Below are positions 42,301 to 43,308 of a stretch of DNA of 49,827 bases, piece after piece. How positions within the stretch are numbered: the first letter of the stretch is position 1; every line of letters begins with the position of its first letter. Under the pieces are notes generated by a model that saw only the letters and a program-made list of their open reading frames with translations, did not search any database and was not told where the DNA came from. This DNA comes from Mycobacterium sp. (GTDB lineage Bacteria; Actinomycetota; Actinomycetes; Mycobacteriales; Mycobacteriaceae): positions 1 to 49,827 of the forward strand of contig JAOPVX010000057.1 of assembly GCA_025965975.1 (NCBI GenBank), read 5' to 3'. The translations under genes were made by a program, and so were the position numbers.

Positions 42301-42312
42301 CTCTCGGCGTCC

Positions 42313-42358
42313 GTAACGCCATGGCGCATTTTCAGCCGATTTCTCGCCACAGCGTTAC
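42313..42358. repeat. 46-bp palindromic repeat, left copy
   Basis: Begins GTAACGCCATGGCGC and ends CGCCACAGCGTTAC. The outer GTAACGC/GCGTTAC and the next TGGCG/CGCCA pair to make a 12-bp interrupted stem; the middle is an unpaired, variable loop with TCAGCC shared by both copies. It starts 12 bp after the stop of the AI-2E permease gene. Confidence 0.8.
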
Positions 42359-42397
42359 AGGCGGCGAATTGTCGGTGGGCGTCGGCACACTTCCGCC

Positions 42398-43252
42398 ATG
42401 GATGGGCCGTTCATTGGTAGTGAAGCAGTCGCGGCGGGAGTAATGACGCGTCATGCGCTCAGGCGCGGTTACATCGCATTGCATCAAGACGTCTACATCG
42501 CGAAGGACACCGAGATCTCCCCCATCGTGCGGGCAAAGGCCTGCTGGCTGAGATCTAAGCGGCGCGGCATCCTCGCCGGCTTCTCGGCGTCGGCGCTTCA
42601 TGGCGCCCGTTGGATCGATCCCGCACGCCCAGCCGCCGTTATCGATACCAACCGTCGGAGGACCCGACGGGTGAACGTGTGGGCAGACCGGATCGAGGAC
42701 GACGAAATCTGCGTGATCGACGGCATGAGGGTCACGAATCCTGCGCGCACAGCCCTCGACATCGCATGCCGATATTCCGAGGGCACGGCGGTCGCCGCGA
42801 TCGACGCATTGGCCCGTGCAACCCGCCTCAAGAGGGCCGACGTTGAGCCGCTCCTAGATCGATACCGGGGCCGCCATGGAATTCGTAACGCCCGTGTCGC
42901 ATTGGATCTTGTCGATCCTGGTGCGGAGTCGCCGCGCGAGACATGGTTGCGGTTGCTTCTCATTCGCGCCGGGTTCCCGCGGCCGCGCACACAGATTCCC
43001 GTCTACAACGAATTCGCAGTGCTGATCGCTGTGCTCGACATGGGCTGGGAGGACATCATGGTGGCTTTGGATTACGAAGGCGACCATCACCGGGCCCCTC
43101 GGCAATTCAGCAAGGACATCCGCCGGTACGAGGAAGTGACGGAAGTCGGCTGGATCGACATTCGCGTCACGTCCCGCGACACTGAAGCAGACATTATCCG
43201 CCGAGTCGCGGCCGCCCGCGCTCGTCGCATGTCCCGCGCTCGTCGCATGTAA
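42398..43252 (+). CDS. AbiEi-like / DUF559 (Vsr-type nuclease fold) protein
   Basis: 284 aa from ATG 42398. N-terminal third resembles the winged-helix of AbiEi-type antitoxins (GVMTRHALRRGYIALHQDVYIAKD). The middle has the family LAGFSASALHGARWIDPARPAAVI and VTNPARTALDIACR. The C-terminal third resembles DUF559/Vsr-type restriction-endonuclease folds: ESPRETWLRLLLIRAGFP, LDMGWEDIMVALDYEGDHHR with Asp/Glu in D-x-E-x-D, and DIRRYEEVTEVGWIDIRVTS. No AbiEii-type toxin gene is adjacent, so a classical toxin-antitoxin role is unlikely. The last 12 codons are an 18-bp tandem duplication, and the TAA stop lies within the right-hand 46-bp repeat. Confidence 0.78.
   Translation: MDGPFIGSEAVAAGVMTRHALRRGYIALHQDVYIAKDTEISPIVRAKACWLRSKRRGILAGFSASALHGARWIDPARPAAVIDTNRRRTRRVNVWADRIEDDEICVIDGMRVTNPARTALDIACRYSEGTAVAAIDALARATRLKRADVEPLLDRYRGRHGIRNARVALDLVDPGAESPRETWLRLLLIRAGFPRPRTQIPVYNEFAVLIAVLDMGWEDIMVALDYEGDHHRAPRQFSKDIRRYEEVTEVGWIDIRVTSRDTEADIIRRVAAARARRMSRARRM
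43215..43250 (+). repeat. 18-bp perfect tandem duplication at the 3' end of the AbiEi/DUF559 gene
   Basis: CCCGCGCTCGTCGCATGT occurs at 43215-43232 and again at 43233-43250. It encodes ARRMS/ARRM and abuts the TAA stop; the last two bases of copy 2 belong to the right-hand 46-bp element. Confidence 0.95.
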
Positions 43253-43294
43253 CGCCATGGTGCGAAATCAGCCAGAATCACGCCACAGCGTTAC
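43249..43294. repeat. 46-bp palindromic repeat, right copy
   Basis: Begins GTAACGCCATGGTGC and ends CGCCACAGCGTTAC. Same length, orientation and end sequences as the copy at 42313-42358, with ten differences, all in the inner 20 bp. The C-to-T change at position 13 keeps a G-U pair in RNA. It supplies the stop codon of the enclosed gene and ends 14 bp before the mmpL3 stop. Confidence 0.8.
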
Positions 43295-43308
43295 AAGCGC
43301 TGGCGTGC

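Follow-up and report, generated by a model that had tools for sequence, protein, structure and literature searches.

A nuclease-like gene of Mycobacterium sp. and the two palindromes that bracket it form one unit, as shown by the recurrence of the arrangement across loci of related genomes. The gene lies in the window, by which is meant the whole stretch of 49,827 nucleotides that was analysed (contig JAOPVX010000057.1 of assembly GCA_025965975.1). Palindromes of the same kind also stand alone in the chromosome, and the repeat type goes with the enzyme type, with one genome (G250) as an exception. The best explanation overall, which we consider probable by a modest degree, is a gene-palindrome unit with cognate recognition, in which nicking or cutting provokes copying by repair.

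Anatomy and recurrence of the gene-palindrome unit

The features of the unit are as follows, with E values for matches to R2, a 62-position palindrome model used for genome counts.

42305..42366, forward strand: left palindrome in its 62-bp form (46-bp core at 42313-42358; R2 match in the window's own genome, E 2.7e-12)
42369..42397, forward strand: conserved leader TTGTCGGTG...GGCACACTTCCGCC, just 5' of the start codon
42398..43252, forward strand: nuclease-like gene for a 284-aa protein with an AbiEi-like N-terminal region and a Vsr/EDxHD-like nuclease domain
43241..43302, forward strand: right palindrome in its 62-bp form (46-bp core at 43249-43294; R2 match, E 2.4e-8)
43250..43252, forward strand: TAA stop codon of the gene, provided by the right palindrome (G, TAA, CG) as bases 2-4 of its core
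42315..42375, reverse strand: match resembling Ms_IGR-8 (Rfam RF02470; L001:1503-1563 in locus numbering)

The left 46-bp core starts 12 bp past the TAA of the permease (Rv0205-like) gene, and the right core starts one base ahead of the TAA of the nuclease gene, so that the stop codon lies inside it. The original prediction had placed two 46-bp elements at these positions in the same orientation, with this distance from the permease stop and this overlap with the stop of the enclosed gene, and in all of these points it was confirmed; the length of 46 bp is that of the core, the full symmetric element in relatives being approximately 62 bp (the core plus 8 bp on each side). The two copies of the window, read in the same orientation, have 75% identity over 61 bp, and they are more degenerate than those of relatives in the outer 8-bp extensions. 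A search of the window's own genome for the ends GTAACG...CGTTAC, with 43 to 51 bp permitted, found 11 places (5 matches with the reversed pattern as a control), and because all 11 are of 46 bp, the palindromes are not attributable to chance. Four of these places are gene-associated, namely the two in the window, C351 (beside a 64% identical protein) and C373 (beside a gene remnant), and the other seven are alone. The leader TGTCGGTG...GGCACACT...CCATG (42369-42397) has a similar counterpart in 78 of 82 loci by a loose motif search without a control; it is perhaps a promoter and/or operator, and appears to resemble the promoter of a leaderless transcript. An exact 18-bp tandem duplication (43215-43250) at the gene's 3' end adds a repeated peptide to the C terminus, immediately ahead of the right palindrome.

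A scan of named genomes (mostly named mycobacteria, with a few MAGs otherwise labelled) provided relatives, of which the best 80 of 181 loci were kept; together with the window and its own-genome paralogue C351 they make up a set of 82 loci. In the common layout, one palindrome ends about 40 bp 5' of the start codon and another holds the stop codon. A strict search for the 62-bp palindrome at the expected places (threshold 15; best of 345 control windows, 14.2), which misses copies of other length and some degenerate copies, found the left element at 70, the right element at 61 and both at 55 of the 82 loci, and the stop codon lies within the right element at 60 of the 61 loci where one was scored. 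When the test was anchored on the stop codon without selection for symmetry, 9 or more of the 14 arm pairs were formed at offset 0 in 46 of 78 loci, compared with 0 to 1 loci at 16 other offsets. This is a cleaner test than the covariation of 71 elements, picked partly for symmetry, in which 22 arm pairs are 88% paired and 310 compensated double changes occur, versus 118 in shuffles (a level reached in 0 of 500). The covariance model R1, built from palindrome copies of the window's own genome, gave 169 matches over 808 kb of the relatives' loci, all of them, by reading of the list, near the ends of nuclease genes. The better match between left and right copies is direct at 40 of 55 loci, inverted at 11 and tied at 4, and the two ends of one cassette differ at 15% of arm positions, as against 39% for the ends of different cassettes. 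The proposal that repeat and protein belong together is largely borne out by this shared anatomy across the 82 loci, and the predicted clustering of copies at genes of the nuclease family is strong, although many copies per genome are nevertheless alone. Chance or an assembly artefact was rejected as a source of the arrangement, given that the layout recurs with both palindromes in 55 of 82 loci. At one locus (L037:4750-5000), the left palindrome is present in three consecutive copies ahead of one gene.

The mycobacterial family to which the unit belongs is large, and its gene subfamilies carry palindrome versions of their own, as shown for the window's subfamily and several paralogues. A homologue (E <= 1e-20) was found in 151 of 200 genomes of the order, with the highest numbers in the window's genus (up to 12 candidates scored per genome). 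Two thirds of 36 gene loci (the window's subfamily, own-genome paralogues and others, with a few genes counted twice) have a strong upstream palindrome, defined as at least 16 of 20 pairs, which 0.9% of 108 control windows reach, and 31% have such a palindrome near the stop codon. The one locus examined outside the genus (L268) has an upstream palindrome with 17 of 20 pairs and none at the stop codon. Versions within the window's subfamily include GTAACG, GTAAGC, GTGAA, GTGTA and others, and several paralogue palindromes are wholly different (for example, TTGACTCTGCG...CGCAGAGTCAA, with TGA again inside the right copy), so that a separate repeat version for each subfamily, as had been anticipated, was seen within the window's subfamily and among several distant paralogues. 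Distant paralogues with other palindromes around the gene ends are present at L024, L208, L213 and L260, and a non-symmetric centre similar to ACTCGCACTTT or to its complement is common to several of the distant-paralogue palindromes.

Single-linkage clustering of flanks divides the 82 loci into 20 clusters, one of which is the mirror image of the largest, corresponding to approximately 19 to 20 chromosomal sites; by crude gene calls, 12 of 20 cassette sites are in convergent, 7 in tandem and 1 in divergent gaps. Ten multi-member site labels require nine changes, the minimum, on a quick tree of 93 proteins, and cassettes seem to arrive rarely and then stay, with mostly vertical inheritance within each site. 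The cassettes of L081 and L103 point the opposite way to those of their nearest kin, which occupy the same site; that of L043, also inverted at this site, groups with cassettes of other sites and would represent either a separate arrival or an older inversion. At the window's site, a cassette-free junction between the Rv0205-like gene and mmpL3 had been expected in relatives, and it is present in all 19 readable cases among 23 genomes of the same genus, with gaps of -86 to 124 bp (one known from alignment ends only) and no nuclease-gene similarity at any of the 23 loci. The flanks of the window are shared by M. tusciae and M. barrassiae, both of which have a cassette there; thus cassette presence varies at the site, and the repeats occur elsewhere in association with the gene family. 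No target duplication is obvious in the window's flanks; the nearest cassette-free sites, about 80% identical, are too diverged to fix the insertion boundary or a target duplication precisely. Two of the cassette-free permease-mmpL3 gaps (L113, L117) contain a different palindrome, nearly perfect at 15 paired positions of 16 in the arms, and no gene. The 30 loci nearest to the M. colombiense site comprise 15 with a cassette (GTAACG-type, GTAAGC-type or other GTAAC palindromes), 9 with one flank only and 6 with both flanks and no cassette; these six are empty (L167), hold a lone GTGAAG-type palindrome (L154, L158, L160, L163) or hold other repeats (L142). A plasmid- or phage-borne element was also considered and rejected, as 8 plasmid and 2 phage records gave only partial matches of less than 60% identity.

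Lone palindromes and their versions

Lone palindromes are more numerous than genes in several genomes. The R2 model detects 17 places (34 two-strand hits) in the window's own genome, 4 of them at cassettes, alongside 9 gene matches that include a remnant and paralogues with other palindromes; G089 has 4 gene matches and 22 places, of which 4 belong to cassettes. R2 hits and gene matches (some of them gene pieces) number 77 and 6 in G062, 48 and 6 in G239, 56 and 12 in G006, 59 and 4 in G159, and 14 and 5 in G016, respectively, while the 3.3-Mb genome G091 has 2 R2 hits and 4 gene matches, of which three contain internal stops. Crude gene calls placed 11 of 42 elements (4 of the 42 at cassettes) in convergent, 23 in tandem and 4 in divergent gaps, with 4 unread.

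Decay of cassettes as the general source of lone copies was rejected, since 0 of 97 lone loci contain a nuclease-gene remnant in flanks of 0.7 to 1.5 kb searched with 12 query proteins at E <= 1e-3. Precise loss of the cassette through recombination between its two palindromes is a possible source. One own-genome locus left out of the 97, C373, is a broken cassette, and the lone copy C212 of the same genome shares 15 bp on its left and 18 bp on its right (with one mismatch) with the window's right copy, which suggests a copied tract; on account of these two cases, both decay and copying seem to occur. Two other own-genome loci, L243 and L246 (C185 and C444, at about 1501-1562), carry near-identical palindromes GTGCATTCAGGGCGG...CCGCCCTGAATGCAC with related flanks, which may mark the termini of another mobile element or be a single repeat that the assembly divided.

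Exact-end patterns were counted in 14 chosen genomes, with cassette-borne copies removed. The ratio of lone GTAAGC to lone GTAACG copies is 18:4 in five genomes with GTAAGC cassettes and 8:47 in six genomes with GTAACG cassettes (Fisher p = 4e-8, with independence overstated by the relatedness of the genomes); reversed controls gave 0 to 3 per genome, such that a few of the counted places may be due to chance. Three genomes (G089, G006 and G011) have zero lone copies of either version. The exception, G250, has a GTAACG cassette yet 5 lone GTAAGC copies versus 3 lone GTAACG copies, and G134 has 2 lone copies of the other version.

The concern over kinship is partly answered by orthology of the lone sites. 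By alignable flanks in at least two genomes, 77 lone loci were assembled into 18 orthologous groups, 11 of which have both versions at the same place; in 8 of these 11 every member agrees with the cassette of its own genome, and in the other 3 G250 or G134 is out of step. Letter-by-letter comparison of 14 groups (all 11 mixed groups included, the 4 omitted being single-version pairs) found that orthologous pairs of different version (34) are 87% identical in the flanks and 61% in the elements, whereas those of the same version (38) are 86% and 82% identical, respectively; non-orthologous elements are 55% identical when of different version and 67% when of the same version. The elements, loop included, thus seem to have been replaced more than mutated. 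The short spacers beside lone copies also diverge, leaving the border of the replaced tract unfixed, and with element identities as close as 61% and 55% the comparison would not cleanly separate mutation, fresh insertion and conversion. No alignment column splits the 5 GTAAGC proteins from the 16 other same-site proteins, and no residues that switch the version were located in this way.

The enclosed protein and comparable systems

The resemblance to AbiEi and DUF559/Vsr proteins noted in the original prediction was recovered by profiles, and fold matches to it are weak. Pfam (E <= 0.01) assigned 36 of 43 family members to the MTES_1575 nuclease, 16 to AbiEi_1 and 15 to DUF559, these being the only families matched, and none to HUH/tyrosine (Y1) IS200/IS605 or any other transposase family; both Pfam matches of the window's own protein are under the curated cut-offs. 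PADLOC AbiEi models match the N-terminal region at 3e-10. The AlphaFold2 model (pLDDT 93.1, pTM 0.88) had no match in the PDB at E 0.001; its best fold match was Rv2827c (E 0.003, weak), and the nuclease domain of the homing endonuclease I-Bth0305I was among the matches at E 0.3 (weak). In a viral library 11 matches reached E 0.001; over half carry the name DUF559, and one is named as a phage homing endonuclease. A sequence profile had no match in the PDB, and NCBIfam offered nothing useful for the protein. Residues E181, D214, H231, Q199 and R256 do not vary among the 93 proteins, and D240 is present in 91 of them; in our reading E181, D214, H231 and D240 would be the EDxHD set. Fold, site symmetry and covariation together point to a homodimeric nuclease of Vsr/EDxHD type as the most likely identity of the protein, which is predicted to recognise its cognate palindrome of about 62 bp through the N-terminal region.

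Homing genes interrupt their own target. The mycobacterial gene, unlike these, is a free-standing intergenic nuclease gene with an intact palindrome, its presumed target, on both sides. Its product may resemble I-Bth0305I, an EDxHD homing endonuclease, in nuclease fold (a weak match) and in invariant residues like E-D-x-H-D, and the target of nearly 60 bp on which I-Bth0305I is described as dimerising (PMC3943268) is close in length to the 62-bp palindrome. The N-terminal region resembles type IV toxin-antitoxin AbiEi antitoxins such as Rv2827c in its profile matches and best PDB fold, but the mycobacterial protein differs from them in its nuclease-like C-terminal domain, and the neighbours in the window (permease and mmpL3, by similarity) include no AbiEii-type partner.

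The nearest analogue is the REP/RAYT system (REPtrons), for which a gene between two palindromes, many lone copies, matching types of gene and repeat, and coevolution are described (PMC2817692, PMC3733652). The comparison, made in the original prediction, holds for the layout of a nuclease gene flanked by palindromes that also occur alone in the genome, and for gene types with their own repeat types. It fails for the enzyme (Vsr/EDxHD-like with an AbiEi-like region, in place of a HUH tyrosine transposase), for the orientation (flanking copies mostly direct, in 40 of 55, in place of inverted repeats) and for the tag (no GTAG in 71 aligned elements); the mycobacterial palindrome is also about 62 bp long, one of the two holds a stop codon, and lone copies are in the tens. 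The two systems may work alike with unrelated enzymes. Full-text searches of an open-access library listed no paper with a palindrome-bracketed nuclease system in its title or the opening of its abstract, subscription journals being outside this search; repeats of M. intracellulare are a subject of PMC10117815.

Candidate mechanism and rival explanations

By the explanation favoured here, the nuclease probably nicks or cuts the palindromes and provokes repair, which probably copies palindrome sequence from place to place and, rarely, the whole cassette. Such copying would explain why lone palindromes outnumber genes, why a genome's lone copies and cassette ends tend towards one version, and why orthologous lone palindromes often differ between species in step with the cassette. 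Unrestrained cutting of its own palindromes by the nuclease would be harmful to the cell, and cutting would have to be rare, conditional or single-stranded. A more specific proposal, which we put forward tentatively and at somewhat less than an even chance, is that of a new kind of selfish or domesticated repeat system in which a palindrome-bracketed nuclease of homing type (Vsr/EDxHD) uses break-induced conversion to bring dozens of lone palindromes around the chromosome to the version that it currently has, with paralogous lineages, each having a palindrome of its own, coexisting in one genome without cross-reaction. If true, this would show the REP/RAYT arrangement to have been reached a second time and independently, with a nuclease in charge in place of a known transposase, and in a genus of great medical importance. 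It would hint at a function for AbiEi/DUF559-like genes, which form a widespread class, supply a natural series of matched nuclease-palindrome pairs for direct tests of how DNA specificity evolves, and allow the upkeep of uniformity in a chromosome-wide repeat family to be tested directly.

A true transposable element, with the nuclease as a transposase acting on palindrome ends and lone copies as miniature non-autonomous forms freshly inserted at favoured intergenic sites by gene 3' ends, would account for the many sites, the occupants of one site in opposite orientations (L043, L081, L103), the lack of gene remnants at the 97 lone loci and the 12 of 20 cassette sites in convergent gaps (crude gene calls). 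We regard it as unlikely, given that 43 members match no transposase family, that inheritance is mostly vertical per site, that L081 and L103 look like in-place inversions, that the window's flanks have no obvious target duplication, and that conversion would more readily let different versions occupy the same places repeatedly. A regulator with operators, in which the protein would bind palindromes that control its own or neighbouring genes or organise the chromosome, and selection would keep the sites matched, is less likely still: overlap with the stop codon (60 of 61) is odd for an operator, orthologous places differ in both loops and arms, nuclease-type residues are invariant, and divergent gaps hold only 4 of 38 readable elements. 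The symmetry of the palindromes, like that of protein sites, and the AbiEi-like region would be in keeping with such a regulator, as would the Mantel correlations of protein with left and right palindrome (0.41 and 0.47, respectively), for which shared descent alone could suffice.

That the palindromes are transcribed hairpins (terminators, mRNA stabilisers or an sRNA comparable to Ms_IGR-8) is very improbable. Of 38 readable elements, 34 lie in gaps that adjoin one or more gene 3' ends, and stem-loops favour gene 3' ends in many bacteria anyway (PMC1590033). The consensus of Ms_IGR-8 has the layout of the GTGAA version; neither the link to one gene family nor the matching of versions is explained by RNA elements. 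Neither strand shows a preference for G-U among the mismatches (left, GT 65 and AC 86; right, GT 52 and AC 67), and a one-strand RNA hairpin was rejected on the gene-strand totals of 117 G-U versus 153 A-C. The lack of enrichment for G-U over A-C speaks for recognition of the palindrome as double-stranded DNA.

Rfam RF02470, Ms_IGR-8, is entered as a 'Mycobacterium sRNA'. The main text of PMC3828370, on mycobacterial sRNAs, contains neither 'repeat' nor 'palindrom', and the IGR name is credited to another study. The copies in the window score 21 bits versus a gathering cut-off of 44 bits, and the consensus shares a 14+18-nt layout and the right arm with the GTGAA version. Ms_IGR-8 looks like one of these palindromes, which would put the Rfam 'sRNA' in a new light, and its annotation may be in need of review.
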